Assembly (NCBI GenBank): GCA_001899635.1
Contig: MKVQ01000019.1
Span: 68,264 to 132,263 of the forward strand
DNA length: 64,000 nucleotides
Reading direction: 5' to 3'
Source of the DNA: Myxococcales bacterium 68-20
Lineage (GTDB): Bacteria; Myxococcota_A; Polyangia; Polyangiales; Polyangiaceae
Shown here: positions 1 through 63,433 of the stretch, in pieces
How the letters are laid out: each line of letters begins with the position of its first letter
Position numbering within the stretch: position 1 is the stretch's first letter
Program-made: the position numbers and the translations under genes
Notes under the pieces: generated by a model
Database searches by the model: none
Seen by the model: the letters and a program-made list of their open reading frames with translations, nothing else
Told to the model about the DNA's origin: nothing

Positions 1-372
1 CCCCCAGCATGCCACCGTTCCGTCGTCGAGCAGCGCGCAGAAGCCCTCGCCATGATCGGAATGCTCGTTGGCCCCCTGTGTCGTCACGAGCGACGTGGCG
101 CACGGAGAAGACGCGCAGACGACCGGGAGTGGCCCGGCATCGAACGGCGCCGCGTCACGCGGTGGCGGCGGAGCGTCGAACGCTGCAGCGCCGTCCGTCA
201 TCGTGGACGCTTCGGGCCCAGCGTCGTCCGGATCGGCCTGCCTGCCATCCTCGTCGCTCGAGCAGCTGAGGGCCGCGCCTCCCGTCGCCAAGCTGATGAC
301 GGTGGCTAGAGCGACGGTCGAGCCAACGTGGACGTAATCTCGCCTCGCTCGACGGAGCGGAGCGGGGGCCAC
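1..372 (-). CDS. RCC1-repeat lipoprotein, N-terminal part (cut by window edge)
   Basis: Partial gene: 124 codons run from a proposed GTG at 372 off the left edge. The N-terminus is hydrophobic (GSTVALATVISLATGG) and reaches a Cys at about residue 35, so a lipoprotein signal is likely although the lipobox (ALSC) is imperfect. An Asp/Pro-rich linker follows, then VVCASSPCATSLV and the beginning of an RCC1 blade (GFCALLDDGTVACWG). The VVCASSPCATSLV segment closely matches VVCATTPCAVQIV in the RCC1 gene at 57415-58842, and both genes sit directly behind a propeller lipoprotein gene, so they are positional paralogs. The gap to the gene upstream is 64 bases. GTG was chosen because it gives a short basic N-terminus and follows an AGG. 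Function unknown; a beta-propeller on the cell surface is inferred. Confidence 0.72.
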   Translation of the reverse strand, partial: MAPAPLRRARRDYVHVGSTVALATVISLATGGAALSCSSDEDGRQADPDDAGPEASTMTDGAAAFDAPPPPRDAAPFDAGPLPVVCASSPCATSLVTTQGANEHSDHGEGFCALLDDGTVACWG

Positions 373-436
373 CCCTGAAGGTGGGATTGATCGGATGCCC
401 AGACGCATCGAATTTGGAGCGATGGATCGATACGAA

Positions 437-1735
437 TCAAGGAGTCGTCTTGTGAAGCGCATAGTGGACACCAATCGCCCATAGGTTGGTCTTCGACACG
501 CCGCGAACTTGGTATACGGGTCGACCGAGCGGTCCTCCGCTCAGCGATATGGTCGATAGCTCGTACGCGCCACCGTCCCAGACGTCGGTGCCCCGAACGA
601 CCAGCCCCGCCCCACCCAGCCACAGGTTGCCTGCCGCGGTGGAGAGCGAGTTCAAGCCCTTCCATGAGACCGTTTGAGGAACGGGCGCAACGGCGATGGA
701 GTAGCCGTCGCCCTCTACCGAGATCCTCACTACGTCGCGGGCCCCCTTGAGTGCGATGAACTGGTTCGTCGCGACCGCCTCGATGTCCGTGAGCCACCCC
801 TCGGTTCCGCCAATCAGCAGAGCTCCGGCTCTCTGGGCGCAGGCGGCGTAGTAATCGCCCGGAAGGACCCCGTCCGCGATCCTTTGATATCCTGCGTGAG
901 TCTTGCGGACAACGAGCGCGCACCCCGCGCGGGAGCGCGATCTTGCCCCCGCGAACCAGACGTCGTCCGTCGTCCCGGCGGCCCCGAGGAAGAACAGCTG
1001 TTCCGACGAAGCGTCGACGTCGGCCGCGACGTACTCGGGAGCCCACTCAGGTGCGCCGCCGTCGACGCTCGTCCAGTGATAGATGGTGTCCTTGAACCAC
1101 GCGTAGACGTCGCCGCTGCTCGTGCCCCACACACCAAAAGCGGGCGTGCGCGCGAGCTCGTCCCTCTGCCAGTACTGCGGATTTCCGTCGTTGGGATCGG
1201 CGCTGCTGCTGCTTCCGAGTCGGTAGCGTTTCCACGACCAAGCCGCCCCGGGCGCAGGTCGTGTGCCGTGATAAACGTAGCCGGGAGACACGCCGTAGTA
1301 GATTTCGTTCTCGTTCGGCGCCCAGAGTCTTCCTACCCACCGGCCGAGTCCCGAGTCGTTCTGCGTACCGTCGTCGATATATTGCCAGTGGGCCTCTGCC
1401 TCGTCCCACTCGAGGACCTTCACGCCGAGGGTCGGGCTCTCCGCGACAGCGAAGGCACGACCGGGAAGGGGCCAGATGTCCTTCATCATCAGATCCACGT
1501 TCGGCAACGCCGTGACGCACCAACCCGCTTGGCTGCACGGCGGTCCGTCGACGGAGGCCTCGTCGCCCGCGTCCGCCGCGTCGACTGCTGGCGTTCCGCT
1601 GTCCGGGATCGTGCTCTCACCTCCGCCGCCATCGGGCAGAGGCTCCGTCCCGTTGTTCACTGACGTGGCGCATGCGACGGCGCCCGCAGCAGAGAGCGCG
1701 AGCGCCCCGCATGCGAGGAGAAGCGAGGCCCTCAT
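437..1735 (-). CDS. Secreted propeller-like lipoprotein (cassette A, second propeller)
   Basis: 432 residues. The start at 1735 overlaps the stop of the gene upstream in ATGA and gives a clean signal peptide (MRASLLLACGALALSAAG) ending at Cys in AVAC. An Asp/Gly-rich linker follows, then weak repeats of the W-G-x-S-x-x-D-V-W/Y type (for example WGTSSGDVYAWF and VSKTNLWAIG), which suggest a beta-propeller. It has exactly the same length as the protein at 58839-60137 and a similar C-terminus (YALHKTTP versus VALHRTPAGKP), so these two are paralogs at the same position in the two cassettes. There is no catalytic motif. Function unknown; a surface-exposed binding or scaffold role is inferred. Confidence 0.85.
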   Translation of the reverse strand: MRASLLLACGALALSAAGAVACATSVNNGTEPLPDGGGGESTIPDSGTPAVDAADAGDEASVDGPPCSQAGWCVTALPNVDLMMKDIWPLPGRAFAVAESPTLGVKVLEWDEAEAHWQYIDDGTQNDSGLGRWVGRLWAPNENEIYYGVSPGYVYHGTRPAPGAAWSWKRYRLGSSSSADPNDGNPQYWQRDELARTPAFGVWGTSSGDVYAWFKDTIYHWTSVDGGAPEWAPEYVAADVDASSEQLFFLGAAGTTDDVWFAGARSRSRAGCALVVRKTHAGYQRIADGVLPGDYYAACAQRAGALLIGGTEGWLTDIEAVATNQFIALKGARDVVRISVEGDGYSIAVAPVPQTVSWKGLNSLSTAAGNLWLGGAGLVVRGTDVWDGGAYELSTISLSGGPLGRPVYQVRGVSKTNLWAIGVHYALHKTTP

Positions 1736-2880
1736 GGTTTTCCTCCAAGCGAGAGAATCACGCCCTGTCCGCCAATCCAGACGTGCCCCGCGGCAGCGAC
1801 CCAGACGGCGGTAAGGTTCGGACGCCCCACGCCGAGGCCTGCGATCTTCGCGCGCGACCAGCGATGGCCGTCGTAGTGAAGGACGACGCCACCATTGCCG
1901 ACGGCCCAGACGTCGGTGGACGAGGCCCCCCACACGGCGTTGAGGTCGGCTGTCGTCGGAACGTCCGAGAGGGCATCCCAGCGCCTGGTAGCCGCTGCGT
2001 AGTGGCGGATGGTCCCCATCGCGCCCACGGACCAGGCTTCGGACGGGGACGCCTCCCAGACCCCACGGAGCGCGTTCCGTGTACGGCTATTGAACGCCTC
2101 GACCTTTGGCGCGTCGCCGGTCGCGTCCGTGATGCGAACGGTCGCTCCCGCCTCACCTACCGCCCAGAGCTCGCTGGCCGAGGAGCCGTGGATGCTGGAT
2201 ATCCGCGTGCATCCCGCGCCCCTGCACACGCTGCTCGGGACACCGACTTGGACCTCGAACACTCCGGAGGGCGATCGACGTAGACGCCAGAGGCTGTCGC
2301 CCGCAGGATGCCAAAGCCACTCAGGCCTCGCCGTTGGGGGATCTTCCTCGGAGACGTCGGACGGAGAGTGGAACGTCCAGCCGCCAGCCGACGGCTGCAC
2401 GCCTCCGTCCTGCACGTCAACGCCGCGCACGTAGACGCGATCGAGAAACCCAAAGGCGACCTCCGTGGAGTCGTGCAGCCAGAGAGCCCGCATCGTCTCC
2501 TGGCTGCCAGTATCCGAACGGGTCCAGGACGTACCGTCGAAGTGGGCGACCGCGCCGACCGCGCCAGCGGCCCAGACGTCGCTGACGGAACGTCCGCGGA
2601 TGACGTTGATCGATGTTCGTGGGTCGAGGCCACCGCTGGGGCTATCGGGATCGAAGAGTCCGTGAGGACAGAGAACATCCGCGGAGCACGTGTCGGGGAA
2701 GTACTCGCAGTCAGCGCATGGCCTCGCGTCGCTCGCGCCAGTGTCGCGACCGCTGTCCGGCTCCGCCGCGGCGTCGGGCCCGCCGCCCCCGTCTGGGGGG
2801 CCGCCGTGGTGATCCAGACCCCCGCTCGCCGAAGTGCACGCCGCGACCCCCGCGACGACGACCAGCCAACCCGCTCTCAT
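1732..2880 (-). CDS. Secreted propeller-like lipoprotein (cassette A, first propeller)
   Basis: 382 residues. The start at 2880 gives a lipoprotein signal (MRAGWLVVVAGVAAC) and overlaps the upstream stop in ATGA; its own stop overlaps the next start in the same way. After an Asp/Gly/Pro-rich linker come repeats around SVSDVWAAGAVGAVAHFDG, SASELWAVGEAGATVRI, SPSEAWSVGAMGTIRHY and SSTDVWAVGNGGVVLHYDG, each roughly 40 to 60 residues apart, typical of a multi-bladed propeller. The C-terminal stretch (GRPNLTAVW...VWIGGQGVIL) resembles the end of the protein at 60134-61393 (GRKPNLRGVW...VWIVGDGVVL). Function unknown; the overlaps imply translational coupling with its neighbours. Confidence 0.88.
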   Translation of the reverse strand: MRAGWLVVVAGVAACTSASGGLDHHGGPPDGGGGPDAAAEPDSGRDTGASDARPCADCEYFPDTCSADVLCPHGLFDPDSPSGGLDPRTSINVIRGRSVSDVWAAGAVGAVAHFDGTSWTRSDTGSQETMRALWLHDSTEVAFGFLDRVYVRGVDVQDGGVQPSAGGWTFHSPSDVSEEDPPTARPEWLWHPAGDSLWRLRRSPSGVFEVQVGVPSSVCRGAGCTRISSIHGSSASELWAVGEAGATVRITDATGDAPKVEAFNSRTRNALRGVWEASPSEAWSVGAMGTIRHYAAATRRWDALSDVPTTADLNAVWGASSTDVWAVGNGGVVLHYDGHRWSRAKIAGLGVGRPNLTAVWVAAAGHVWIGGQGVILSLGGKP

Positions 2881-4061
2881 CGCGCGACCTCTCCGCCGTC
2901 CTGGACTTGGTCGCATGGCTCGACCACACACGCGCCGCCGACACAGGCCTGACCAGCAACCGCGTCACAGAGCCTTCCGCAAGCTCCGCAATTTTTCGGG
3001 TCGCTGTTGGTGTTCACCTCGCATCCGTCTGCTGCGTTCCCGTTGCAATCGCCCCAGCCTTCGAAGCACTGCAGGGTGCACATGCCGTACGTGCAGGCAG
3101 AGGAGTCGGTGCACTTGAAACCGCAGCTTCCGCAGTTCGAGCGATCCGAGGAGAGGTCGACGCACTCCCCCATGCAAAGGCCACCGAAGCATGCGCCACA
3201 GAAGGTCTTGTTCGCGGGGCACATGCATTGGATGAATCCGAGTGGATTGACTCCGCACTGCTGGCCGGGCGCGCAAACGTTTCCGCAAGCGCCGCAGTTC
3301 TCCGTATCCAGCAGATAGGTCTCGCATCCATTGGAGAGGACGCCATCGCAGTTTCCAAAGGGCACCCTGCACTGGAGCGCCCCACATTGGCTGCCGGAGC
3401 AGCCGTAATACATGTTTGAAAATTGCGCCGCGCCGTCGCCCCCCGTCGAATCGCAAGCGTTGTCGCAAGCGCCGCAGTTTGCGTCAGAGTTATTCGTATC
3501 GACGCAGTTCCCAGACGTTGGACACCACGTTCTTCCGCCACCGCAGCCGCAGCCGTAGTCAGTGGCCGTCTGAAGGCACGGACGGGCGGGGTCGTCACAT
3601 TTATTTCCGCATGCACCGCAATGCTCGTCGCTCATCTGGATTTCGCAACCGTTGTCGGGAATACCATCGCAATCCAGGAACCCGGCCTTGCATTGCGGCA
3701 CGCAGCGACCCTCGGTGCACTCGTAGATCTCGCGACCGGTCTCCTTCGGACAGGCGACTCCGCAGGCGCCGCAGTTCATCCTGTCCGTCTGCAAGTTCAC
3801 GTCGCACGGGAACCGCGAGGTCGGGCATTCCGTCCATCCCGCAGGGCACTTGTTGGAAGGGCAATACGACGTCAGCCCAGCTTCGATCTCGAGCGAGGTC
3901 GCCTCGACGTCTGGAGCCACGAAAGAGGGCGGCGCGGCGTCGTGGATCTCGGCGATGGTCACCTCGGTCCCACAACCGCCGAAGAGCCACGCGAGCGTCG
4001 TGGTCGACGCCAGAGTCATGGGTGCGCTGAAGCGCAGGATACGTCGAAGCATCTCGGTCAT
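2877..4061 (-). CDS. Cys-rich NCGACG-repeat lipoprotein (cassette A)
   Basis: 394 residues. A hydrophobic leader ends at Cys in LFGGC, consistent with export as a lipoprotein. The mature part holds six NCGACG-type units (NCGACGVAC, HCGACGNKC, NCGACDNAC, NCGACGNVC, NCGSCGFKC, NCGACGRLC), several of them preceded by a D/N-C-D/N-G-x4-GCE segment. The many paired cysteines suggest a rigid, disulfide-bonded extracellular rod. From memory, such myxobacterial proteins are sometimes mislabelled tryptophan synthase alpha chain; nothing here supports an enzyme. It lies 15 bases behind the regulator gene and overlaps the next gene by four bases. The counterpart is at 61390-62682. Function unknown. Confidence 0.88.
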   Translation of the reverse strand: MTEMLRRILRFSAPMTLASTTTLAWLFGGCGTEVTIAEIHDAAPPSFVAPDVEATSLEIEAGLTSYCPSNKCPAGWTECPTSRFPCDVNLQTDRMNCGACGVACPKETGREIYECTEGRCVPQCKAGFLDCDGIPDNGCEIQMSDEHCGACGNKCDDPARPCLQTATDYGCGCGGGRTWCPTSGNCVDTNNSDANCGACDNACDSTGGDGAAQFSNMYYGCSGSQCGALQCRVPFGNCDGVLSNGCETYLLDTENCGACGNVCAPGQQCGVNPLGFIQCMCPANKTFCGACFGGLCMGECVDLSSDRSNCGSCGFKCTDSSACTYGMCTLQCFEGWGDCNGNAADGCEVNTNSDPKNCGACGRLCDAVAGQACVGGACVVEPCDQVQDGGEVAR

Positions 4062-4076
4062 CCCTCCACGGAGGAT

Positions 4077-4910
4077 TCACGGATTCGGGGCGGCAACGCG
4101 CGAGCTCCCGGGAGCTTCTGGATTCGCCGGGGCCTCGAAATTCGATATCGACGGTAGGGGATGGCCGACGGTCACCTCGAGTCGTGCCGCATACGGCGTG
4201 CGCGGAAAGCGCCGTACGAGCGCGCGCGCACGCTGCAAGGATTCCTCTTTCCGCCCCATCATCGAGAGCGCCTCGACGGCGATCACCTCGCGTTCCTGGA
4301 CGAACTCGCCAGATGGGTAGGCGCGTGCGTGCTCGCTCGCGAGTGAGAGCGCGCGCTCGGGATCCGCGGCGAGCGCCGCTCGCGCACGTTGAACGAGCTG
4401 GAGCTCCGTCGCCGACGGCTTCGCGCGCGTCGCAACGGCGCTCCCGGTGGACGTGGGGACCGAAGCGGGCGCCGACGCCATCTCCGCGGACGGAAGGTCG
4501 CCGACCACGATCGTGACCATCGTGGAGCCGCTCGACTCATCCGCGGCAGGGGCCTCCGCGGTCGGAGCCGCCACCGGAGATGTTGCCCCCGGAGCCGCCG
4601 CGAGAGGGGCTGGCGGAGCCTTCGTGGCAGTCGTGAAGAGGCCGCCCGTCACTCCCCACGAGAGGTAGACCGCCCCTGCTACCGCCAAGGCGACGATGCC
4701 GACCTTGCGGAATCCCATCGATCGCGCGGACGGTGGTGAGTGCTTTGGTGGCGCCGACGGTGGCAGGGCGCCCGCTGTCGCGAGCCGCTTCGACATCCGC
4801 TCGATGGCCGCGGCGCCTGGACCGCCCCGGCGCGTCGAGCGCACGAACGCGCGCAGGGCTTCGGGCTCTCGCTCGTCGATGCGCGGAGGATCCGAGCGAT
4901 CCGATTTCAT
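4077..4910 (-). CDS. Single-span regulator with TPR-like periplasmic part, putative anti-sigma factor
   Basis: 277 residues. The ATG at 4910 overlaps the stop of the sigma-factor gene (ATGA). The first ~90 residues are charged and probably cytoplasmic, followed by one membrane span (RKVGIVALAVAGAVYLSW), a Pro/Ala/Thr-rich linker and a helical C-terminal part (ALAADPERALSLASEHARAYPSG, with a second helical pair) that looks like one or two TPR-type repeats. Position and topology fit an anti-sigma factor for the sigma gene, but no HxxxCxxC zinc motif is visible, so this is inference from context. The protein at 62696-63433 has the same plan. Confidence 0.75.
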   Translation of the reverse strand: MKSDRSDPPRIDEREPEALRAFVRSTRRGGPGAAAIERMSKRLATAGALPPSAPPKHSPPSARSMGFRKVGIVALAVAGAVYLSWGVTGGLFTTATKAPPAPLAAAPGATSPVAAPTAEAPAADESSGSTMVTIVVGDLPSAEMASAPASVPTSTGSAVATRAKPSATELQLVQRARAALAADPERALSLASEHARAYPSGEFVQEREVIAVEALSMMGRKEESLQRARALVRRFPRTPYAARLEVTVGHPLPSISNFEAPANPEAPGSSRVAAPNP

Positions 4911-5446
4911 GTCGCCTCTCCGAGCGCCCGTGAGAGCTCGCGGCGCGCAGCATGGTATCGGGCGTAGGCGGTCTTCAGGGGACATTGGACGGCTTCGGCG
5001 ACTTCGCGCATCGACATCTCTTCGATCTCGTACAGGAGGAAGACGGCTTGCTTGTCCTCGTCGAGCGAGGCGAAGACGCGGCTCAGAAGCCCGATCTCCG
5101 TGCGAGCGAAGAGGTCGCGCGGATCGATCCGTTCAGGAAGCGTCTCGACCGGACACTCGTGACGGAGGTGACTCCGCCGTCGATATCCCGACGCGCGGCG
5201 GCGCGCGATGCCGTAGAGCCACGCTCGCGGGTGCTGTACATCGCACTCCTCTTGGCGGCGGTAGGCCACGAGGAAGACCTCCTGCGTCTGATCTTCGAGG
5301 TCCGCCTCCGGCACTCCGAAGTGTCGCAGGCTGCGCCACACGAACTCTACGTACGTCGAGAACAGCGCTTCGATCGTCATCGGCACGGGCGCCACGTCTC
5401 CAGCGGCTTCCCGCGCGGTGACGACGCCAAGGATCGAAGCATGCAC
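4907..5446 (-). CDS. ECF-type RNA polymerase sigma factor (cassette A)
   Basis: 179 residues, normal for an extracytoplasmic-function sigma factor. Region 2 is visible as LFSTYVEFVWRSLRHFGV with DLEDQTQEVFLVAYRR, and region 4 as LDEDKQAVFLLYEIEEMSM followed by the helix-turn-helix EVAEAVQCPLKTAYARYHAA. The chosen start is the GTG at 5446; an ATG at 5380 directly before region 2 is an alternative. It is the first regulator of a chain of secreted lipoproteins and probably directs their transcription. The stop overlaps the membrane-regulator gene by four bases, as in the paralogous cassette at 63430. Confidence 0.93.
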   Translation of the reverse strand: MHASILGVVTAREAAGDVAPVPMTIEALFSTYVEFVWRSLRHFGVPEADLEDQTQEVFLVAYRRQEECDVQHPRAWLYGIARRRASGYRRRSHLRHECPVETLPERIDPRDLFARTEIGLLSRVFASLDEDKQAVFLLYEIEEMSMREVAEAVQCPLKTAYARYHAARRELSRALGEAT

Positions 5447-5504
5447 GTCTTCTGTGTGCCCGCGTCCGGCCTATTTTCTCACGACGCACGTCGCTTTGTG
5501 TCGT

Positions 5505-6608
5505 TCAGTGGAATTCGTAGCCGAGCCCGAGCGACACGCGCGCCCCGAAGAGACTGGCCCGGTGAACACTGTAGAGCTTGGCGCCGTGGCGGATCTGAAG
5601 TCGATCGCGGATGAGGGCGACTTCGAGCTCGGGAAGGATCTCGGCGAAGATGTGGGGCGCGAGCTCGACGCGTGCGAGCGCACCGGTGCCCGCAAGTAGC
5701 GACGCGCGGGTTTCGTCTTTGACGACCGAGAAGCCCGTCGGGATGCTGCGACTCGCCCCGGCCCGAACGCCGGCTGTCGGAATGAGCTCGAACCGCGCCG
5801 TGCGGAGCGCCGCCACGCCCACGCGCGCGGAGGCGGCGAAGAGCTGAAATCCAACCTCGCCGCTCTCCACGCGAACGGAGCCGCAGGCTTCGAAGCTCGC
5901 CTCGAGCCCGACCAGGACGATCGATCTCGGCGAGTACATCGCACGGATCGCGAAGCCGCGTCCTACGTTCGGAAGCACGCCGAGCGAGCCTACGCCCGCT
6001 GCACCGACCACGAGCCGATGAGGGAGCGGCTCCGCCGAGGGGCGCGCCGCGGGCGCTGGTGTCGAGGGAGGCGGCGCTGGTGTCGACGACGGCCCTCGCA
6101 CCGACGCGGGCGCTGGTGTCGAGGGAGGCGGCGTCTCCGCGCGCTCCGCCGAATCGCCGCGCTCCTCCAAGCGAGGACGAGCGACCGCGATCATCATCGC
6201 AAGGACGAGCGACACGGGCTCTTCGATCGCCTCGCAGCTCGGCGGTCCGACGCGCACCTCACGTTCGCCCAGGGCTCGGCCGGATGCATCCTTCAGCCCC
6301 AGTTTGACGACGAATCCTCCGCCCACCGCCCGAACAGCACCTTGCACGAACAGCTCCGGCGACGCCTCCGAGGGAGACTCGCCAAGGCTCGCCTGCGTGG
6401 CGGCTACGATCACTTCGCGCGACGGACACCCTGCCGGAGCCGACCAGACGAGATCGAAGGGCGCGCCGTTCGCCGGCGCGGGCCACGACGCGACGACGAG
6501 CCCGACGGCGAGCCCGACGGCGCTCGCCAACGTCCGTCCACGCGCGCGCGTGGCGCTCAACCTCAAGAACGATTCGACATCTCGACGCACGATGGTACGC
6601 GACGGCAC
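5505..6608 (-). CDS. Predicted exported protein with Pro/Ser/Thr linker and beta-barrel-like C-terminus
   Basis: 367 residues. A signal-peptide-like segment (LASAVGLAVGLVVASWPAPANGA) is followed by a ~110-residue domain with two Cys (SAPAGCPSREVIVAA and GPPSCEAIEE). Next is a repetitive TPAPPPSTPAPA linker encoded by two 28-bp direct repeats (6049-6076 and 6106-6133). The C-terminal ~180 residues are rich in alternating hydrophobic strands and end in SLGLGYEFH, a terminal aromatic-x pattern typical of outer-membrane barrels. It lies 58 bases upstream of the sigma gene on the same strand and may share its transcript. No homologous gene precedes the second cassette within the window. Function unknown. 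Confidence 0.78.
   Translation of the reverse strand: MPSRTIVRRDVESFLRLSATRARGRTLASAVGLAVGLVVASWPAPANGAPFDLVWSAPAGCPSREVIVAATQASLGESPSEASPELFVQGAVRAVGGGFVVKLGLKDASGRALGEREVRVGPPSCEAIEEPVSLVLAMMIAVARPRLEERGDSAERAETPPPSTPAPASVRGPSSTPAPPPSTPAPAARPSAEPLPHRLVVGAAGVGSLGVLPNVGRGFAIRAMYSPRSIVLVGLEASFEACGSVRVESGEVGFQLFAASARVGVAALRTARFELIPTAGVRAGASRSIPTGFSVVKDETRASLLAGTGALARVELAPHIFAEILPELEVALIRDRLQIRHGAKLYSVHRASLFGARVSLGLGYEFH
6049..6133. repeat. Pair of 28-bp direct repeats in a Pro-rich linker
   Basis: The same 28 bases occur at 6049-6076 and 6106-6133 inside the gene at 5505-6608 and encode the Pro/Ser/Thr/Ala-rich linker. They explain the repetitive protein sequence and could vary in copy number. 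Confidence 0.8.
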
Positions 6609-6888: not shown

Positions 6889-8065
6889 CTACGCGGCGTC
6901 GGGCTCGTCGCCGTCGAGCGTAGTCGGATCGCGGGCCCTCACCAGCTGCGGAGCGTCGACCGGAAGGCCGAGGCGTTCCAGAATCTGGCGCGCGGCGCCC
7001 TTCTCGACGACGGTCTCGATGAGCCGAAGGCGGCCCTTGCATTGTGGGCACTCCAGGATATCGACGTCGAACGTTCTCTGGAGGAGCTGCGCCCATGGCA
7101 GGCGAGGTGAGGTGGCGTAGAGCAGTCCGCCGAGGACGCGAGACCAGTGCCGGACGCTCAGAATGTTGGGCGCGAGGGTCGTCACCTCCACGAAGGCGTT
7201 GCCTCCATGACCGTCGCACGTGAGGCGTGCTCGATCGCACTCGGCGACTGCACCGGGCACAGCATCCGTCCCTCCCGCGACCGCAGGCCTTCGACTCGGT
7301 TCGAGGTCGCGGCCCGAATGCCCAGCGGGTCGGCTCGACGGTTCGCGGTCGTGGCCCGCATGCCCAGCGGGTCGGCTCGACGCTCCGCCGTGCGTGGGCG
7401 CGGCATCCCTACGAGTCGACGGCCCGCACGGTCTCTTCTTGCCTTCGGCCCCAGCGGTGACGGTGACGGTGCCGGAAGCGATCGGCGGGCCGGGCACGAC
7501 CTCGCGTCGCCAGGCCGCGTGCGGCGCGAGCACCCCGTGATAGCGTACGAGCGGATAGCGCGGTGGCGGCACCAGCGCTGCAAGTCGCGCCAGCAGCTCG
7601 ATGGGCGTCATCACCCGATGCTTCGCTCGACCAGCACCGAGCTTCTTGATCCGATAGGCCATACGGCCACCGGGAAGCAACCGGAGTCGCTCGAGCGAGA
7701 ACGGAGGACGCGCGCCATATCTGCAGAGCCACTCACGACCAGAATCATCTTCGGCAGCGATGCGGACGCTCGCGTGGAGATTGAAGCCGTCATGCTCTAC
7801 GGCGCTTCCTTCGCGGGATGGAGCATCCGAGGCGAGACCCATGGCTTCTCGCGCACTCCAGCCAGCGGCAGACTGAGAGAGCGTGCGCATCGTCCCTCGC
7901 TGCGTCGCGATCGCCGCGCAAGCTTCCATCGGGGAAGGGAGGGCGGTCTCATTTGAGCGCGCTTCGAGCGGGGGCGCTCGAGATCACCATGACGCTCGAG
8001 CCACCGGAGGGCACGCCGATGTACGGTCCGCACGACCACCGCCTCGCCGGGCCCGGCCTTCGTGA
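6889..8065 (-). pseudogene. Decayed IS91-type transposase (frameshifted, N-terminus missing)
   Basis: The open part 6889-7929 encodes the C-terminal half of an IS91/Y2-type transposase. Landmarks are DGFNLHASVRIAAEDD, CRYGARPPFSLERL, RVMTPIELLARLAALVPPP, RYHGVLAPHA and, near the end, a zinc-knuckle-like CPQCKGRLRLIE. Upstream, similarity continues in another frame (VRTVHRRALRWLERHGDLE) up to a stop codon near 8066. The correct frame resumes as RSNET, so there is one frameshift around 7955. The N-terminal zinc-finger and catalytic HUH/Tyr part is absent. No terminal repeats were recognised. A 42-bp duplication lies inside the coding part. The gene is almost certainly inactive. Confidence 0.72.
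7298..7381. repeat. Two tandem 42-bp units
   Basis: Units 7298-7339 and 7340-7381 differ at three positions. They lie in frame within the transposase remnant and encode repeated RPAGHxGxDxEPS segments, so they do not shift the frame. Confidence 0.85.
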
Positions 8066-8098: not shown

Positions 8099-9574
8099 TC
8101 AGGGCAGCCCGGTGACCTTCACCGGGAACGGGCTGTCGACCGTCGTTCCGTCCCCGAGCTGTCCGCGATCGTTCTTGCCCCAGCACCACACAGTGCTGTC
8201 GGCCTTGCGCGCGCATACGTGACGGAGCCCGGGAGCCACCGCGACGACGTCCGACAGCACGCCCACCCCAGCCGGTCCCTTGATCTGCGTGGGCACCGGC
8301 GTCGAGACGATCGCGCCTCCATCCGGAAGCGACGCGATGTCGGCGCCCCAGCACCAGACCGTCTTGTCCGTTCGCACCGCGCAGGTGACCTGCTCCGCGA
8401 CGCCGATCGACGCGACGTTCGCGATCCCCGGCACCGCCGCCGCGAAGGCGCGCTGCAGCGTCGTCGCCGGATCGATGCCGAGCTGGCCGGCGTCGTTCGT
8501 CCCCCAGCAGAAGACCGCTCCCTGCCTGAGAGCGCAGGTGTGCTTGCCGCCGGAGGCGATCGCCGTGACCTTGTCGAGCGGCGTGAGGAGGTTCGCGTCG
8601 GTGACGACCGCCTGCGGAACGGGCTCGCCGCTCTGCGTGCCCGGCCGGCCGAGCTGCGCGCCGAGGTTCGTGCCCCAGCAGAACACGCGATCTCCCGCGA
8701 GCGCGCACGAGTGCACCTCGCCGGCGGCGACCGCGCTCGCCTTCGGAGCCATCGCGCCGGGGATGGCCGTCGACTCGACCAGCGTGCCCGAGCACGAGTG
8801 GCTCGCGAGCGCGTGGTAGGCGTAGAAGATCGGCGCGGAGCACGCGGGATCGGCGGCGACCGGACGCCCGAGCTCACTGAAGGCGGAGTGACCGAAACAC
8901 ACGTGCCTGCCGTTCGCCTTCAGCACGCACGTGTGAGGCCCTCCCGCCGCGACCCCCGCGACGTCGAGGTTGCCGATCGCGCGAGGTCGGGTGCGGTCCG
9001 GTCCGAGGGCCGACGGCGGCTCCGCCTGCGCGCCCGAGAAGCGCTGGCCCCAGCAGAAGAGGATCCCCTGACGACGTGCACAGGAGTGCCACGGCGCCAG
9101 CGCGAGCTCCTCGATGCCGTCGAACGGCAGGCCGGTCTCGTCGACGGTAATCCGCGTGGCCGTCGAGACGTCCGCCGCGGGCGTGCCTTCTCCCGTCGTG
9201 CCGAGTCCGAGCTGGCCATGATCGTTGGCGCCCCAGCACCACACCGTCGCGGCCCCGCCGGTCGTGACGACGCATGTATGATCCCCGCTTCCGACGGCGA
9301 GGTCGGGATGGAAGCCCGAGCCCGTCGCGAGCAGCGGTCCCGTCGGACCGCCGTCGACCGGCCCCGCTTCGGCGTCCAGGCCAGCGTCGAGCTCCGCGTC
9401 GACCAGCGACGCGTCGGCGGGGCCAGCGTCGCCGACCGTGACGACGTCCGCGCCCCCCTCGACCGGCGGCGGGACGTAATAGCGGTCGGTGGGCTCGCGC
9501 TCGATCTCGTCACATGCAGCGAATGCGAGCGCACTCACCGCGATGCCGATCCCGAGAGCAAGCCCCCAGCGCAT
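8099..9574 (-). CDS. RCC1-repeat lipoprotein, stand-alone
   Basis: 491 residues. The N-terminus is a lipoprotein signal (GIGIAVSALAFAAC), followed by an Asp/Ala/Gly-rich linker and a seven-fold RCC1 pattern. Blade cores include VWCWGANDHGQLG, LFCWGQRFSG, HVCFGHSAFSELG, VFCWGTNLGAQLG, VFCWGTNDAGQLG, VWCWGADI and VWCWGKNDRGQLG. Seven blades make a complete propeller. The alternating Cys suggest disulfides, as expected for an exported protein. It resembles the RCC1 genes of the two cassettes, but no sigma factor or Cys-rich partner sits beside it. The IS91 remnant abuts its 3' end. Function unknown. Confidence 0.9.
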   Translation of the reverse strand: MRWGLALGIGIAVSALAFAACDEIEREPTDRYYVPPPVEGGADVVTVGDAGPADASLVDAELDAGLDAEAGPVDGGPTGPLLATGSGFHPDLAVGSGDHTCVVTTGGAATVWCWGANDHGQLGLGTTGEGTPAADVSTATRITVDETGLPFDGIEELALAPWHSCARRQGILFCWGQRFSGAQAEPPSALGPDRTRPRAIGNLDVAGVAAGGPHTCVLKANGRHVCFGHSAFSELGRPVAADPACSAPIFYAYHALASHSCSGTLVESTAIPGAMAPKASAVAAGEVHSCALAGDRVFCWGTNLGAQLGRPGTQSGEPVPQAVVTDANLLTPLDKVTAIASGGKHTCALRQGAVFCWGTNDAGQLGIDPATTLQRAFAAAVPGIANVASIGVAEQVTCAVRTDKTVWCWGADIASLPDGGAIVSTPVPTQIKGPAGVGVLSDVVAVAPGLRHVCARKADSTVWCWGKNDRGQLGDGTTVDSPFPVKVTGLP

Positions 9575-55591: not shown

Positions 55592-57400
55592 CTAGTTGAC
55601 CCCCGGCGGCGGCGCTTCGTTGATCGGCCTGAGCCCCGTGCCACCGACGTAGCCATAGCTCGCGTCCTGGCCCGTTCCCCAGACCGTGATCGCGAACGGC
55701 CCGTCGCTCCGAGCGACCTGACGGCCGTAGCCGCACTTTCCCTTCGCGAACGTCTGGGGCAAGAACCCGCTCGTCAGCTTGACCCATGCGAACTCGTACT
55801 GGCCGCTCGAACCAAGCGGTTGCCAGCCATCGATCTCGCCACCGCACTCGAGCTCGACAGGCATGAAGCCCTTCGCGGTCTTGCGGCGCACCACCGTGAG
55901 CGCGGTCTCCGGGAACGTGAAGTCCGTGAAGAACACGTACCGATCGAGGTACTGGGCGGTCGGAGGAACGTTCACGAAGTCGGGATCGCCCAGCGTGGTC
56001 TTGCCCGTTCCGTTACCGTAGGTCGCGCCCGTCATGTACACGTTGACGTGGAACGGGTGCTTCGCGTCCTGGCTCTTCACCACGAACACCTGATCGGTGA
56101 TGAAGCTCGCCAACTGCCCCGCGTTGAGTGTCTCCGGTGCGTTGAGGGGACGCGACGGCTCATACGTGAGCTTCGTGCCGTCCACGCCGCCTACGATCGT
56201 GTAGGGAACCTTCTCGCGGATGCTGGACGAGAAGCTCGCGATACGCGGGCGGAACGGCACGACCGCGTATTCGCTCCCCCAGTGCTCGAACGGCGGGATC
56301 TGTTGCTGGAGGATGTCGCACCACGGTGTCGGGAGCTCGGTGCACTCCGAGCCGCCGAAGAGAGCGACGGGCTTGGTCGTCTCGATCGGACTACCCGTCA
56401 TCGGAGCTTGGAGGAACTGCAAGACCTGGCCCTTCGACAGCTTCCAGGTCTGCGTGACACCGGCGGTCGCTCCGGCCACGGGCCCGCCGGCCGCGATCTC
56501 GACGTTCGGCCGAATGCTGACCTCGGTGTCGTCCTCGTTCGCGATGATCTGGATCGATCGACGACGATAGGCATACGTCGGATTGAAGTTCTCCGGGCTC
56601 ACCGCGACGTAGCTCTTCGTCCACGACGAGGACGGGAGAAGCAGCGTCGCGGTCGGCACGAAGGACGGGGCGCCGCCGTAGGGGTAGATCGAGTAGGCCG
56701 AGACGGGAGCGTCGGTCTTGATGTGGAACCCCTTCGTCATTCCCGTGCTGTTGATCATCGGATCGACGAGCATTGCCGGGGTGACCGAGGGCGGGCATCG
56801 CGCCGCTCGCTCCGAATAGTTCGTATCGTCGTGCGAGAGGAACACGATCGCGACTTCACCGGGCGGGAGCGGACCTTCGAGGCGCTTGTAGACCGGCTGG
56901 TTGTCCTGCTGCTCGACGGTGTAGGTCGCGTTCGAGATGTCGAGAGCAGCGGTCCCGCGCTCGGCCGAGATCGTCACGGCCCGGTCCCAGGTGTTCGCGA
57001 TCATCGCCGCGAAGCAACCGCCCTTCATGTCGACCGCGTTGGCCGGCGGAACCGTCCAGAAGTCGCAGCCCGCCGATCCTTTCGTCAGCCCCACCGCCGC
57101 GCACGCGTCGACGCACGAGCCATCGCCGCAGCCTTCGTCCGCATTGCACTGCGCGACGACCTTCTCTTCTCCCTCGCACCCGGTGAGAACCTGCTTGAGG
57201 TCTCGAGAGCAGTGGAGCCCGCAGTTCGGCGGCGGTGGCGGTGGCTCCGAGACCTCTCCGGCGTCGGGGGACTCGGTCAACAGCGAAGGGGGCTCCTTGT
57301 CGAAGCCCTGGCGGCTCGAGCACGCCATGATCGCGAGGCCCACTGCGCTCACGCAGAGGATGCCGGGGATGAAGCCGATGGAACGGTCCGAGCTCTTCAT
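55592..57400 (-). CDS. IgGFc-binding-like lipoprotein (cassette B)
   Basis: 602 residues. A lipoprotein signal ends at Cys in AVGLAIMAC, then a Pro-rich linker and a Cys-rich part of ~60 residues. The main body, from ~130 on, resembles the IgGFc-binding N-terminal domain: FHIKTDAPVSAYSIYPYGG, PTATLLLPSSSWTKSYVAV, IIANEDDTEVSIRPNV, LSKGQVLQFLQ, GSPIETTKPVALFGG, QQQIPPFEHWGSEYAVVPF, then YVFFTDFTFPETALTVVRR. Such domains occur in large adhesins and mucin-like proteins. It follows the RCC1 gene after 14 bases. A surface-adhesion role is inferred. Confidence 0.86.
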   Translation of the reverse strand: MKSSDRSIGFIPGILCVSAVGLAIMACSSRQGFDKEPPSLLTESPDAGEVSEPPPPPPNCGLHCSRDLKQVLTGCEGEEKVVAQCNADEGCGDGSCVDACAAVGLTKGSAGCDFWTVPPANAVDMKGGCFAAMIANTWDRAVTISAERGTAALDISNATYTVEQQDNQPVYKRLEGPLPPGEVAIVFLSHDDTNYSERAARCPPSVTPAMLVDPMINSTGMTKGFHIKTDAPVSAYSIYPYGGAPSFVPTATLLLPSSSWTKSYVAVSPENFNPTYAYRRRSIQIIANEDDTEVSIRPNVEIAAGGPVAGATAGVTQTWKLSKGQVLQFLQAPMTGSPIETTKPVALFGGSECTELPTPWCDILQQQIPPFEHWGSEYAVVPFRPRIASFSSSIREKVPYTIVGGVDGTKLTYEPSRPLNAPETLNAGQLASFITDQVFVVKSQDAKHPFHVNVYMTGATYGNGTGKTTLGDPDFVNVPPTAQYLDRYVFFTDFTFPETALTVVRRKTAKGFMPVELECGGEIDGWQPLGSSGQYEFAWVKLTSGFLPQTFAKGKCGYGRQVARSDGPFAITVWGTGQDASYGYVGGTGLRPINEAPPPGVN

Positions 57401-57414
57401 GGACCCTCGATTCT

Positions 57415-58842
57415 CTAAAAGCGAACTGAAACAGGGGTGTGGTGCGGATCGTTGTCGATGTTGCCTTGACCGAGCTCACCGCGTTGATTGCTCCCCCAGC
57501 AGAAGACGCTGCCGCCCTGGACGAGGGCGCAGACCGAGCGCGACGCTGCCGCCGCGATCTGCACGGCGTGCCCGTCGAAGCTGTCCACCGGGCGGAACGA
57601 CATCGAATAGGGGGTCTCCTTCGCGTCCATTCCGAGCGCACCCGTGGCGTTGTCGCCGGCGCACTGCACCGTTCCGTCGGTCAGACGCACGCAGGAGATC
57701 TCCCCCGCAGCGGCGACCTGCTGCGGCCAGGCCTCCTTGCTCACGACCTTCACCCGGCGCGGCTTGGGGGAAGGATCGGCGAGCCCCGTGCCGAGAGACC
57801 CCATCGAGCTCGAGCCCCAGCAGTAGACGTCCCCCTTCACGACGGCGCACGCGTGCGCGCGGTTCGACGTCGTGGAGGTGACCGAGAAGCTCGTGGCCGG
57901 TCCGAGCCCGATCGCGAGGGGCCGCTCATCGGGGCTCAGCGAAGCGACACGCGCCCCCACGACAGCAGCGGTGCCGGCGACGGCTCCCCAGGAGACGATC
58001 TCTCCGGCGCCCGTCACCCCGAAGCCGGTGGCGGTGCCGGCGGTGGTACGAACGACGTCGAACGCACCGAGCGCCGCCTTGCCCGGGCCACCGATGGTCG
58101 TGGTCGTGAGGCGCGCGAGCTGCCGCTGGGCGTTGTCCCCCCAGCACCAGACCTCGCCGCTCGCGAGCACCGCGCACGCGGTCACTTGCCCGACGTCGAC
58201 GCGGCTCGCCGGCCCCGGCAGCACCACGGGGGTCGTTGCAGGATGGGCCCTCGTGTCGCCGACGGGCGGGTCGACGGCGAGCCCGAGCTGGCCCTTGTCG
58301 TTGCCGCCCCAGCACCGAACGTTGCCGCCGGTGACGACGGCGCACGTCGTAGTCCCACCGGCGCTGAGCTGGCTCGCGTCGGTGAGCCCGGTGACGGGCT
58401 TCGGCACCCAGGGCGTACCGGCATCGCCGATGCCGGTGTCACTCGCGCCCGCGTCCGGATCGACACCGAGCGAGCCCTTCGAGTCATCGCCCCAGCAGCG
58501 AACGGTGCCATCGCTCATGCGGGTGCAGAAGTGCCTCTCCCCGGCCACGATCTGCACCGCGCAAGGCGTGGTCGCGCACACGACCGGCTCGTCCGTCGGG
58601 TCGAAGGGATCCTTGCCCGGCCCCGCGTCCTCCGGTTCGTGCGCGCCCGCGTCTTCTTCCGGAGCCGCGGCTTCGGGGAGAGAAGCCGGCGGCGGTCGCC
58701 CCGCTTCGGGCTCTTCCTCGAATGTCGGCCGCTGCACGTCATCCGAGCTACAGGCGACGAGCGCCGCCGCGGCGACGCCTGTCACGCTCGCCGGAAACCA
58801 GTAAACCAATCGTCGCATGGGCTTCTTCATGACGGACCTCAC
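57415..58842 (-). CDS. RCC1-repeat lipoprotein (cassette B)
   Basis: 475 residues from the GTG at 58842, which overlaps the upstream stop (GTGA); an ATG at 58830 is the alternative. The lipoprotein signal ends in AAAALVAC. After a Glu/Pro/Ala linker, VVCATTPCAVQIV starts a seven-blade RCC1 propeller (VRCWGDDSKGSLG, VRCWGGNDKGQLG, VWCWGDNAQRQLA, IVSWGAVAG, VYCWGSSSMGSLG, VQCAGDNATGALG, VFCWGSNQRGELG). The partial gene at 1-372 has the same start of domain. Function unknown. Confidence 0.9.
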   Translation of the reverse strand: MRSVMKKPMRRLVYWFPASVTGVAAAALVACSSDDVQRPTFEEEPEAGRPPPASLPEAAAPEEDAGAHEPEDAGPGKDPFDPTDEPVVCATTPCAVQIVAGERHFCTRMSDGTVRCWGDDSKGSLGVDPDAGASDTGIGDAGTPWVPKPVTGLTDASQLSAGGTTTCAVVTGGNVRCWGGNDKGQLGLAVDPPVGDTRAHPATTPVVLPGPASRVDVGQVTACAVLASGEVWCWGDNAQRQLARLTTTTIGGPGKAALGAFDVVRTTAGTATGFGVTGAGEIVSWGAVAGTAAVVGARVASLSPDERPLAIGLGPATSFSVTSTTSNRAHACAVVKGDVYCWGSSSMGSLGTGLADPSPKPRRVKVVSKEAWPQQVAAAGEISCVRLTDGTVQCAGDNATGALGMDAKETPYSMSFRPVDSFDGHAVQIAAAASRSVCALVQGGSVFCWGSNQRGELGQGNIDNDPHHTPVSVRF

Positions 58843-60137
58843 GGCTTGCCCGCAGGGGTCCTGTGGAGCGCGACCTCGTCACCGACGACCCAGAAGTCGT
58901 CGGTGCTCTTCCCCCAGATCGCGTTGAATGATTTCGCGACGGGAATGTCCGTCACGCGGATGGCGGCCTGCTGCCACTTCGTGCCGTTCCAGTGGGTGAC
59001 GAGGCCGGAGGGGCCGACGCCCCAGGTATCGTTCGGCGCCGTGCCCCAGAGCGCGACGATGGGCCGGTCCCACGAGTTCGTCCGCTTGAACGACCAGGAG
59101 AAGTCGTTCCCACCGTTGGTGCTCGCGCCGCGCCAGAACCCCGCCTTGTAGTTGGCGGTCGCTCCCCGAACCCAGACCGCGCTGGCGGAGCTCATCGCGA
59201 TCGCGGTGAGGTCTCCCGGTACGTTCCACCCGACTTGTTTGTCTTCGAGATCGAGCGGCAGCCCGACGTCGGTCCACCCCTCCACTCCCGATGCACGCCG
59301 ATACAGGCGCGCGGCGAGCGACGGGCTCGTCCCGTTCCGGTACTCCTGAGCCGCGAGCCACACGCCCGAGACGGGGCTGGCAACGACGACGCTGAAGGCC
59401 ATTGGCTGCGACGCGAAGCTCTCGTCGACAATCCACCCCGAGCCGCCCTCCGCCGGATCCCCGTCGTAGTGAAGGATGCGGCCCCTCCAGTCCCAAGGGT
59501 ACTTGCTGCTGTTCGTCACGCCGCCGACGGCCCAGACGTCGTTGGGCCCGGTCCCGCCGATCGACTTGATCGGAATGGTGGCATCGCCGGGCAGCACGAC
59601 GGGCGCGAACACGAGCGTTGCCGAGCTCGGCCCCGTACCGTGGAAGAGGCCGCCAGGCGTGAGGACCCAAATGTCCGTCGGCCCGCTCCCCCAGATCGTG
59701 AAGGTGGTGCCCGTGACGTTCGTGAGCTGCGTGTGGACGCTCCACGCGCTCCCGTCCCAGCGAAGCAGGTCGCCTTTGCGGCTCACCGCCCAGACGATGC
59801 CTGTGCCATCACCCCAGACACCGGCGAGGTTTTGTCCCTTCGGCACCTCGGTATGACAGAAGTTGTCGTCCGAACAGATCCGCGTCCCCGCATCGCCGGC
59901 GTCGGGGTCGACGGACGCGTCGTCAGGCGCATCCGGGCTCTCGCCCGCGTCGATCTCGGGCGAGGCGTCCGTGACCGGGATCACGCTTCCGCCGCCCCCG
60001 CTGTCGGGGGTCGAATCGTCTATCGCAATCTCTACCGAGTCGGAGCACGCGGTCAGCGCGAGCGTCGTCGCCGACGTCAACACGAGGAAGCTCGCGGCAG
60101 CCGCCAGCGTCGTTCGAGGGATCGCCACGTCCTTCAT
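58839..60137 (-). CDS. Propeller lipoprotein (cassette B, second propeller)
   Basis: 432 residues, identical in length to the protein at 437-1735. Signal and lipobox SATTLALTAC, then a Gly/Asp/Pro linker and about seven blades: GDGTGIVWAVSRKGDLLRWDG, GSGPTDIWVLTPGGL, GTGPNDVWAVGGV, ASPVSGVWLAAQ, SSASAVWVRGA, GTAPNDTWGVGPSGLVTHWNG and GKSTDDFWVVGDEVALH. ATGA and GTGA overlaps on its two sides couple it to the first propeller gene and the RCC1 gene. Function unknown. Confidence 0.88.
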   Translation of the reverse strand: MKDVAIPRTTLAAAASFLVLTSATTLALTACSDSVEIAIDDSTPDSGGGGSVIPVTDASPEIDAGESPDAPDDASVDPDAGDAGTRICSDDNFCHTEVPKGQNLAGVWGDGTGIVWAVSRKGDLLRWDGSAWSVHTQLTNVTGTTFTIWGSGPTDIWVLTPGGLFHGTGPSSATLVFAPVVLPGDATIPIKSIGGTGPNDVWAVGGVTNSSKYPWDWRGRILHYDGDPAEGGSGWIVDESFASQPMAFSVVVASPVSGVWLAAQEYRNGTSPSLAARLYRRASGVEGWTDVGLPLDLEDKQVGWNVPGDLTAIAMSSASAVWVRGATANYKAGFWRGASTNGGNDFSWSFKRTNSWDRPIVALWGTAPNDTWGVGPSGLVTHWNGTKWQQAAIRVTDIPVAKSFNAIWGKSTDDFWVVGDEVALHRTPAGKP

Positions 60138-62682: not shown

Positions 62683-62695
62683 TTTTCTGCTCTCG

Positions 62696-63433
62696 TCACG
62701 GCTGCGCAGCGCAGCTCAGTTCCACGCGGCGGGTGAGCGGGCCCTTCGGGCGCCCGTCGAGGAAGACCTTCGCTTCGCGCACGGCTTCGTCGCGTCGGCC
62801 CAGGCTGCAGAGGACGACGACGCGCTCGGCTGCGCGATCGCTCGCGAGCCAGCCGTTCGGGAACGTGCGCGCATGCTCGTCGAGCAGTGCGAGCGCTCGG
62901 TCGCCCTGCCCGCTCTGGAGCGCACGACGTGCCTCGGCGAGGAGACTGGCCTCGCGCGCGAGCGAGTCACTCGCCGGAGGCGTGACCGTCGGCGCCGAGG
63001 AGGGCGCGGCGAGCGCGACTCTCCGCACGTCCTTCGCCGCCGACGACACGGGGACTGCGGTCGGAAGCGAGTCGACGGTGACGGACGGAATCGAGGGTGC
63101 GCTCTCCACTTCGCTCGGAGGGTCGACGACCTGCGGCGGAGCGACCGGCTCCGGCGCGGGAGCGGAGACCGCTGCAGTCGTCGGATACGCATCCATCTTC
63201 TGGAATCCGATCGTGCCGACGATCGCCAGCGCCACGCACGACAGCCCGGCGAGCAGCACCTTCTTCCCGGTGCCGGTGCCCGCGCGCGCGCCCGACGGCG
63301 AGGCCGGAGCCGGAGCCTGGGCGAGCGATGCTTGGATCTTGGCGAAGACGCGGTCCGCGTCCGTATCGGTCGGGTCGTACTCGTCCACGAGCGGAGCGAG
63401 GAGCGACAGCTTGTTTTCGGGCTCGGTGCTCAC
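62696..63433 (-). CDS. Single-span regulator with TPR-like periplasmic part (cassette B)
   Basis: 245 residues. The cytoplasmic N-terminus is ~50 residues (NKLSLLAPLVDEYDPTDTDA), then one span (KVLLAGLSCVALAIVGTIGF), a Pro/Val/Thr linker and a helical TPR-like C-terminus (ASLLAEARRALQSGQGDRAL and VVLCSLGRRDEAVREAKVFL). It overlaps the sigma gene in ATGA and lies 13 bases before the Cys-rich gene. It probably acts as an anti-sigma factor but has no HxxxCxxC motif. The C-terminal TPR-like parts of the two cassettes' regulators are clearly related. Confidence 0.78.
   Translation of the reverse strand: MSTEPENKLSLLAPLVDEYDPTDTDADRVFAKIQASLAQAPAPASPSGARAGTGTGKKVLLAGLSCVALAIVGTIGFQKMDAYPTTAAVSAPAPEPVAPPQVVDPPSEVESAPSIPSVTVDSLPTAVPVSSAAKDVRRVALAAPSSAPTVTPPASDSLAREASLLAEARRALQSGQGDRALALLDEHARTFPNGWLASDRAAERVVVLCSLGRRDEAVREAKVFLDGRPKGPLTRRVELSCAAQP

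Follow-up and report, generated by a model that had tools for sequence, protein, structure and literature searches.

Diverged copies of an eight-gene cassette with a sigma factor and predicted surface lipoproteins fill about a tenth of a myxobacterial genome and combine two blocks of separate history

At the left edge of a 64,000-nucleotide stretch of the Myxococcales bacterium 68-20 genome (hereafter "the window", G000:C19:68264-132263, where G000 is the 11.9-Mb, 52-contig assembly of this genome and C19 one of its contigs), a run of genes read from position 6608 down to position 1 (copy 1) repeats the plan of a second run near the right edge (copy 2). The original prediction explained these two copies by duplication and divergence, which raises the question of whether they form a pair at all, and of what such a set of genes might do. 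We found that the genome contains at least 117 diverged copies of an operon-like eight-gene cassette, this locus being one of them. The cassette falls into two blocks that have had independent histories and meet at a seam, which lies within about the first 25 residues of a mature Cys-rich predicted lipoprotein. Block 1 comprises the genes designated here BAR-SIG-AS, and block 2 the genes STIG-PB-PA-RCC-IGG. All genes of copy 1 are encoded on the minus strand, with features as follows.

BAR: 5505-6608, minus strand; block 1; member of a family of 122 open reading frames (ORFs), modelled as a periplasmic alpha/beta domain plus an 8-stranded outer-membrane barrel
BAR-SIG intergenic stretch: 5447-5504, minus strand; block 1; probable promoter region
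SIG: 4907-5446, minus strand; block 1; extracytoplasmic function (ECF) sigma factor with PF04542, PF08281, and TIGR02937
AS: 4077-4985, minus strand; block 1; predicted single-pass membrane protein of 302 amino acids with C-terminal tetratricopeptide repeats (TPR), candidate anti-sigma factor
STIG: 2877-4061, minus strand; Cys-rich predicted lipoprotein, Pfam Stig1, N-terminus with block 1 and Cys-rich part with block 2
STIG lipobox Cys30: 3972-3974, minus strand; position within STIG
Seam: 3897-3926, minus strand; border of blocks 1 and 2, residues +16 to +25 past the lipobox Cys, projected position
PB: 1732-2931, minus strand; block 2; predicted lipoprotein with W/G propeller-like repeats, 135-ORF family
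PA: 437-1933, minus strand; block 2; predicted propeller-like lipoprotein, 128-ORF family, true start probably near 1735
RCC: 1-474, minus strand; block 2; RCC1-like predicted lipoprotein, cut by the window edge and a 16-N gap
IGG: C19:65542-67335 (L009:7279-9072), outside the window; IgGFc-like gene of 597 amino acids

The genes thus lie where the first reading of the sequence had placed them, from 5446 to 1. That reading had also taken the RCC1 gene to be partial, predicted its continuation to the left, and left open whether an IgGFc-like gene follows. A 16-N assembly gap (C19:68248-68263) does fall inside this gene, with the window beginning right after it, and RCC1-like coding sequence picks up again left of the gap, followed by the IgGFc-like gene listed above. 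The barrel gene, previously considered an extra, is instead the standard eighth member of the cassette.

A DNA search with positions 1-6608 returned 153 matching segments in G000, corresponding by eye to ~40 loci, while a protein search with the IGG of copy 2 returned 142 matches, including 131 at ≥255 bits. We extracted 133 stretches around 135 of these 142 matches (the weak places C43:589660, C2:93535, and C38:44359 were left out) and searched their ORFs with profiles built on the window copies; gene models were stop-to-stop ORFs, so that paralog identities include some upstream translation. This yielded families of 139 IGG, 137 RCC, 135 PB, 128 STIG, 128 PA, 126 SIG, 123 AS, and 122 BAR ORFs, in which a few may be counted twice as stretches overlap. 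Rather than two copies, the genome carries 117 cassettes with seven or eight of the genes among the 135 IgGFc-like loci compared (one doubled record removed), the remaining 18 loci holding 1-6 cassette genes each. These 117 cassettes are spread over 35 contigs and sum to 1.117 Mb (9.39% of the genome), with a median span of 9.5 kb, and a sigma gene is present in 116 of them. In 76 cassettes, all eight genes occur on one strand in the strict order BAR-SIG-AS-STIG-PB-PA-RCC-IGG; from SIG through IGG, the genes overlap or almost touch at their predicted starts, and a gap of ~100 bp separates BAR from SIG. Our pairing rule left 16 of the 117 cassettes without RCC and 8 without BAR, and at least in C16_404402 the RCC gene exists yet was missed. 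Median protein identities between paralogs range from 20% (BAR) to 42% (STIG), and the closest pairs from 61% (AS) to 90% (RCC). Departures from the common layout include L063 (G000:C9:49452-59463), where BAR, SIG, and AS are followed by two IgGFc-like genes and STIG, PB, PA, and RCC were not found; this locus may represent an ancestral state of the cassette or a reduced one. At L150 (C44:191790-201326), block 1 lies on the strand opposite to block 2, and at L101 (C23:238841-248907) the SIG-AS part does so, with overlapping stop-to-stop ORFs; both are cut near the AS/STIG boundary.

The division into two blocks emerges from the way in which the genes covary. Spearman correlations were calculated on pairwise identities across the 76 strict cassettes or a set of 85, with STIG tests based on 75 of the 76 cassettes and trees on 32. 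Across the 76 cassettes, rho reached 0.30-0.38 within BAR/SIG/AS (0.35 for SIG-AS) and 0.65-0.83 within STIG/PB/PA/RCC/IGG, while between blocks it ranged from -0.03 to 0.05 (≤0.09 with 85 cassettes), and permutations were concordant. The BAR-SIG gap followed the same division. Over 76 cassettes, pairs with similar sigma factors also had more similar gaps, a result equalled by 0 of 500 permutations, and pairs with similar IGG did not (208 of 500). Among the 25 cassette pairs with IGG ≥75% identical, none had SIG at ≥50% (maximum 44%), when 252 of the 6670 SIG pairs overall reach this level. Sigma factor sharing among IGG-close pairs is thus no more than expected by chance, whereas whole-cassette duplication predicts it for nearly all of them. 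In quick trees of 32 cassettes without a mixture model, an IGG-defined clade of 6 was rejected by the SIG tree (p-AU 1e-84), and a SIG-defined clade of 13 by the IGG tree (p-AU 1e-45). For the ten closest IGG pairs, DNA identity per 250-base step was 52-94% (70-90% in most cases) between a point inside STIG and the IGG stop codon; beyond either end of this stretch, it was ~40%, as for unrelated DNA. Overall, the phylogenies show that blocks have been exchanged between loci.

The border between the blocks lies within STIG. For 19 of 22 pairs, identity changed at a point located -19 to +129 bp relative to the codon of the lipobox Cys, and the other three gave edge artefacts. When STIG segments were scored in ten-residue steps with 500 permutations, residues -20 to +20 around the lipobox Cys showed raised similarity between cassettes with similar SIG (equalled in 0 of 500), with little or no excess between those with similar IGG (13 to 462 of 500). 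Both links were detected at +16 to +25, and from about +26 the IGG link was the stronger one (0 of 500). The first residues of mature STIG even reveal some sigma classes, as the motif [IV]G-x-DC-x3-FC was found in 5 of 75 cassettes, all within one class of seven. At the seam itself, 9 of 75 cassettes share the 10-mer CGTATTGCCC (shuffled maximum, 5), which reflects at least partly a coding motif, YCP. Site-specific recombination was considered and appears unlikely, with k-mers at the cassette ends not clearly above shuffled sequences (76 cassettes).

These separate histories are visible in each of the two window copies. Copy 2 (55592-63975) has the same gene order as copy 1 and includes the following features.

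IGG: 55592-57400, minus strand; block 2; IgGFc-binding-like predicted lipoprotein, PF17517
RCC: 57415-58842, minus strand; block 2; seed of the RCC family
PA: 58839-60230, minus strand; block 2
PB: 60134-61450, minus strand; block 2
STIG: 61390-62682, minus strand; spans both blocks
Seam: 62479-62508, minus strand; between the blocks, projected position
AS: 62696-63433, minus strand; block 1
SIG: 63430-63975, minus strand; block 1
BAR: C19:132390-133529, just beyond the right window edge; block 1

Among the 118-135 paralogs of each copy 1 gene, copy 2 ranks 54th to 122nd for all eight genes, and the window copies are thus not a recent pair. The nearest paralogs of copy 1 are found in C21_70598 for SIG and AS and in C16_79574 for BAR, while those of STIG, PB, PA, RCC, and IGG all belong to C37_47494; since nearest relatives differ between its two halves, this single cassette has two histories. 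In copy 2, BAR, SIG, and AS are nearest to C16_131490, STIG, PA, RCC, and IGG to C40_502435, and PB to C43_348678. Local duplication as the source of the two window copies was rejected, as they are no closer than random pairs. The suggestion of duplication and divergence therefore stands for the cassette plan as a whole and falls for this particular pair, and independent phylogenetic origins, named beforehand as evidence against duplication, were found block by block but not copy by copy.

The scarcity of recent SIG duplicates suggests which block moves. Counted by local alignment, pairs at ≥75% identity numbered 1 of 6670 for SIG and 0 for AS and BAR, against 25 for IGG and 8 for RCC, although SIG is as conserved as IGG between species (median ortholog identities of 88% and 87%, from nine hand-picked pairs). 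Block 2 is thus probably the copied part, placed onto chassis that stay different. As an example, C6_30530 has a whole-cassette counterpart in G003, a second genome of the genus, which is the best match for all eight genes (75-88%), while the block 2 of C40_265753, with 84% IGG identity to C6_30530, sits next to another sigma factor; the most parsimonious reading makes C40_265753 the recipient. Neighbouring cassettes (<13 kb apart, 20 pairs) share more of block 2 (median IGG identity 0.55 vs 0.40, p 2e-4), and SIG identity is not raised among them (0.34). We also compared ratios of non-synonymous to synonymous substitution rates (dN/dS) between 14 paralog pairs and 7-9 hand-picked ortholog pairs, which were trimmed differently: paralog/ortholog values were 0.40/0.22 for STIG, 0.51/0.34 for PA, 0.36/0.30 for RCC, 0.27/0.18 for IGG, and 0.32/0.35 for PB. 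Positive selection was rejected, with median dN/dS <1.

As to the proteins themselves, SIG of copy 1 contains sigma-70 regions 2 and 4 (PF04542 and PF08281, both above cut-off) and matches TIGR02937 above cut-off. An AlphaFold2 model of BAR from copy 1 (mean predicted local distance difference test score, pLDDT, 84) shows an alpha/beta domain, a Pro-rich linker, and an 8-stranded barrel with strands at 198-366. Superposed on OmpW and OmpA barrels (VIA Z ~17, 2.1-3.1 Å over 135-168 residues), the modelled barrel matches the small 8-stranded OmpA/OmpX/OmpW type. In the model of AS, the N-terminal half is poor and includes a helix (97-110) that is hydrophobic by sequence, with pLDDT 54-60 there; TPR-like helices at 194-273 are well modelled, and their resemblance to BamD is weak (best E 0.02). 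TPR grooves commonly bind extended peptides. TPR_14 was matched in 9 of 41 AS members, copy 1 AS not being among them, and no NCBIfam family matched the latter. Its identity covariation with SIG suggests that AS may be an anti-sigma factor. Within block 2, PF17517 was found in all 13 members of the alignment holding copy 2 IGG (E ≤0.001), the first member scoring 317 bits against a cut-off of 25.6, while the RCC1 piece of copy 1 gave a weak Pfam match (E 0.017). The Pfam scan of PB and PA from copy 1 returned no match, and a propeller fold is suggested for PB by its W/G repeats, which PA has as well. Lipobox-like motifs occur in 66-72 of 76 sequences for each block 2 protein, compared with 54 of 806 other long ORFs, 2 of 126 SIG, 1 of 123 AS, and 10 of 119 BAR, which suggests lipidation and a putative surface location of the block 2 products.

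Taken together, we consider it reasonably probable, though well short of certain, that the cassettes are self-regulated surface-signalling operons in which sensor blocks are swapped between sigma-factor chassis; the signalling part of this proposal is read from sequence features. Block 1, i.e., the promoter region, SIG, AS with its periplasmic TPR, BAR, and the STIG signal peptide and first residues, would constitute a self-regulating trans-envelope signalling chassis, and block 2, i.e., the Cys-rich STIG domain, PB, PA, RCC, and IGG, a surface sensor or adhesin assembly. The STIG N-terminus would tether this assembly to the chassis, perhaps via the barrel or in the TPR groove. Once the assembly is engaged, inhibition of the sigma factor by its own AS would be lifted, and the freed SIG would transcribe its own cassette. 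The presumed chain would hence run from surface assembly to STIG tether, to barrel and/or AS TPR, to sigma factor, and to its own promoter, with tether, direction of signal flow, and the existence of a ligand all being putative. Mutually fitting parts (BAR, SIG, AS, and the STIG N-terminus) would stay together while the sensing part is exchangeable, and new sensor/chassis pairs would arise when block 2 is copied onto another chassis.

Several observations weigh against this proposal. Known sigma-binding domains (zf-HC2, FecR, etc.) are absent from the 11 Pfam families matched in 41 AS members. An exact bipartite search across 76 cassettes found no convincing sigma-class promoter motif: the best pattern, GGACG-N14-TCGT, occurs upstream of BAR in 4 of 8 members of one class (p 5.5e-5, uncorrected among many patterns). 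BAR is missing in 8 and lies on the opposite strand in 5 of the 117 cassettes. Within STIG, the SIG link reappears in weaker form between +31 and +45 (0.30 vs 0.17 and 0.40 vs 0.28, 0 of 500 each), and because the signal peptide tracks SIG as well, linkage alone could account for the behaviour of the STIG N-terminus. The C44 cassette, in which block 1 is inverted relative to STIG, offers a hint at most of a functional link between STIG N-terminus and SIG. Its two best STIG N-terminus matches have SIG identities of 0.55 and 0.51 (median, 0.33; mean over the five best, 0.41), but they do not include the cassette whose SIG is closest (0.58); of two "opposite strand" cassettes tested, one had been paired with the sigma gene of its neighbour. 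Block independence is not complete either: pairs with SIG ≥60% identical have IGG at 52%, above the overall 39%, which older whole-cassette duplications would explain. In G003 (17 cassettes), between-block rho was 0.19-0.47, against 0.38-0.45 and 0.61-0.92 within blocks, so that the blocks are less decoupled there; this suggests that complete shuffling is not the general rule and that G000 is an extreme case. During promoter inspection, a recurrent TTTTCGTGA-like string was noticed, by eye only.

The most serious alternative, which we regard as possible yet clearly less probable than signalling, is a repertoire of surface coats or adhesins in which the sigma/AS block selects which assembly is made, e.g., as a phase- or condition-dependent coat or for kin recognition or attachment, and no signal returns to the sigma factor. 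The lipoprotein-like character of block 2 proteins, their adhesin-like families (IgGFc and Stig1), and a paralog dN/dS exceeding the ortholog value in four of the five block 2 genes (PB being the exception) would all fit such a coat. However, barrel, AS, and STIG N-terminus covary with the sigma factor, which suggests that a physical chain reaches the surface, although linkage could produce this covariation too, and a coat repertoire does not readily account for a sigma gene of its own in 116 of the 117 cassettes.

It is improbable that the cassettes are a mobile element family that spreads with no cellular sensing role. Movement is suggested by flanks of G003:C101, G003:C360b, and G006:C128b (the latter from another genome of the genus), which match places in G000 other than that of the cassette's best match, and by relatives of PA and IGG in G137, a genome of another family. 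Overall, few flanks match between G000 and G003 or G006, in part since the search covered ~2.5 kb around the G000 stretches, but some have been kept in place (G003:C188 with C24; G003:C337 and G006:C2 with C4). In addition, Pfam and NCBIfam scans revealed no recombinase among the eight genes, the best end k-mer reached 37 of 76 cassettes against a shuffled maximum of 36, dN/dS is well below 1, and relatives of a Y2-type transposase piece located near copy 1 were found by tblastn in 0 of 132 other cassette stretches, other transposase kinds not having been sought.

Still less credible is a whole-cassette duplication followed by regulator divergence so fast as to mimic independence. Nearest-paralog identities, redone by local alignment on a set still including the doubled record, are indeed lowest for AS (42%) and BAR (45%). 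That of SIG (58%) is similar to PB (57%) and RCC (59%). However, the ortholog identities given above reveal no excess divergence of SIG, pairs with 84% IGG identity drop across a sharp edge to the ~40% of unrelated DNA in their regulators, and SIG and IGG clades contradict each other. An equally slim chance is left for mixed cassettes as chimeric assemblies of repeats: the 52-contig assembly does contain N gaps, including the one that interrupts copy 1, and 7 of the 133 regions hold N, but paralog proteins are at most ~90% identical (one doubled record aside), the edges fall where no identity could mislead an assembler, and the plan recurs in a second species, with cassettes that are orthologous gene by gene and with swaps of its own.

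Returning to surface signalling, an extension that we offer tentatively, with less confidence than the proposal itself, is that these operons form a combinatorial receptor repertoire. More than 100 trans-envelope receptors, occupying about a tenth of the genome, would carry exchangeable multi-protein sensor blocks grafted at a fixed lipoprotein hinge onto mutually orthogonal sigma chassis, and selection could thereby reassign a signal to another transcriptional channel. If so, the genome would represent a natural experiment in receptor rewiring, with >100 sensor/chassis combinations sharing a common seam that show which parts of the path must stay together. The cassettes would also provide candidates for orthogonal sigma/regulator pairs, together with predicted surface proteins, from a genus which we take to lie near the myxobacterium Labilithrix, and they raise the question of why one genome needs >100 such channels. 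To our knowledge, and provided that the reading holds, no other set of surface operons with a common plan and individual regulation is as large.

The general kind of system proposed here, surface signalling through ECF sigma factors, is familiar; copy number and block exchange are what is unusual. FecIRA surface signalling is one such system. FecA-FecR-FecI (PMC9249621) resembles the cassette in its kinds of parts, i.e., an outer-membrane barrel, an inner-membrane regulator, and an ECF sigma factor. Unlike FecA, the cassette barrel is modelled as an 8-stranded OmpA/OmpW type rather than a TonB-dependent receptor (no TonB Pfam match in 45 BAR members), and AS has TPR and no FecR match. In Bacteroides, SusC/SusD loci likewise form large paralogous sets of surface-lipoprotein genes within a genome, and some of them possess an ECF sigma factor together with a membrane anti-sigma factor that reads an outer-membrane protein; 101 SusC/D pairs and 26 ECF sigma/anti-sigma systems are listed for B. 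thetaiotaomicron in PMC3878776. The cassette differs by its fixed eight-gene plan, its near-universal sigma gene, and the reassortment of its blocks, and no Pfam or NCBIfam match to SusC, SusD, a TonB receptor, or a sugar enzyme was found in the window proteins scanned. In SigI/RsgI systems, the sensor is a domain of the regulator itself. Clostridium thermocellum has several paralogous sigma factors (PMC12203970), each with a membrane regulator sensing an outside substrate (nine RsgI). These systems differ from the cassettes by having about nine copies and a different sigma family. In antigenic variation by gene conversion (vls, pilE), segments of surface proteins are copied between loci with flanks unchanged. 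Cassette loci, in contrast, each keep their own regulator and exchange a five-gene block, and no silent cassettes were recognised. The nearest mechanical analogy is RcsF with its barrels: in the RcsF-OmpA-IgaA system (PMC9907809, PMC4942254, and PMC7553776), a lipoprotein complexed with outer-membrane barrels signals to an inner-membrane regulator. The output there is a phosphorelay with no sigma factor (PMC9907809).

Outside G000, the cassette plan was found, in smaller numbers, in a few species of the same genus. IGG matches numbered 38 in G003, 12 in G006, 5 in G009, and 4 in G011, and 0-2 in each of seven other genomes of the genus at 1e-50. Loci of G003, G006, and G009 contain the full set of eight genes, and one of G011, cut by a contig end, contains six, while the other-genus loci inspected (two of G014 and one of G035) had IGG without the cassette plan. 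At most seven candidates per genome were scored in the order search, four in the phylum search, and 17 in the family STIG search, and counts elsewhere are thus lower bounds and misses soft. At 1e-50, STIG of copy 1 had relatives in at least 3 of 108 family genomes and missed G009 and G011, both of which were found with STIG of copy 2. With PA of copy 2 as query, relatives were found in at least 2 of 377 phylum genomes, the second being G137, where PA adjoins IGG; the phylum PA matches listed include none of the related cassette-bearing species. In G137 (C195:53-4648), these relatives of PA and IGG lie at a contig start, which is compatible with either transfer or a binning error, and no STIG relative was found there at 1e-30. 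Many genomes of the order encode IGG-like proteins (64 of 183 at 1e-90), and several genomes reach all seven candidates scored, so that expansions elsewhere are possible. A protein search with SIG matched Labilithrix sp. ACE_MYX5 (two loci) and gave four distant matches, and the open-licence literature, judged by its listings, yielded no description of the cassette. Among loci of other genomes with both genes, SIG and IGG point to the same G000 cassette in 14 of 31. At G003:C370, BAR, SIG, and AS are nearest to C6_130620 (48-73%) and STIG, PB, PA, and IGG to C16_404402 (80-90%); judged by these matches, this cassette is a block swap across species.

Just upstream of copy 1, window positions 6889-7929 contain the Y2-type transposase piece (PF04986, profile positions 59-177 of 183). 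A stand-alone RCC1 protein is encoded beside copy 1 at window positions 8099-9574 and is not part of the cassette plan; extra RCC1 genes also adjoin several other cassettes, e.g., on C21, C36, C42, C44, C45, and C49.

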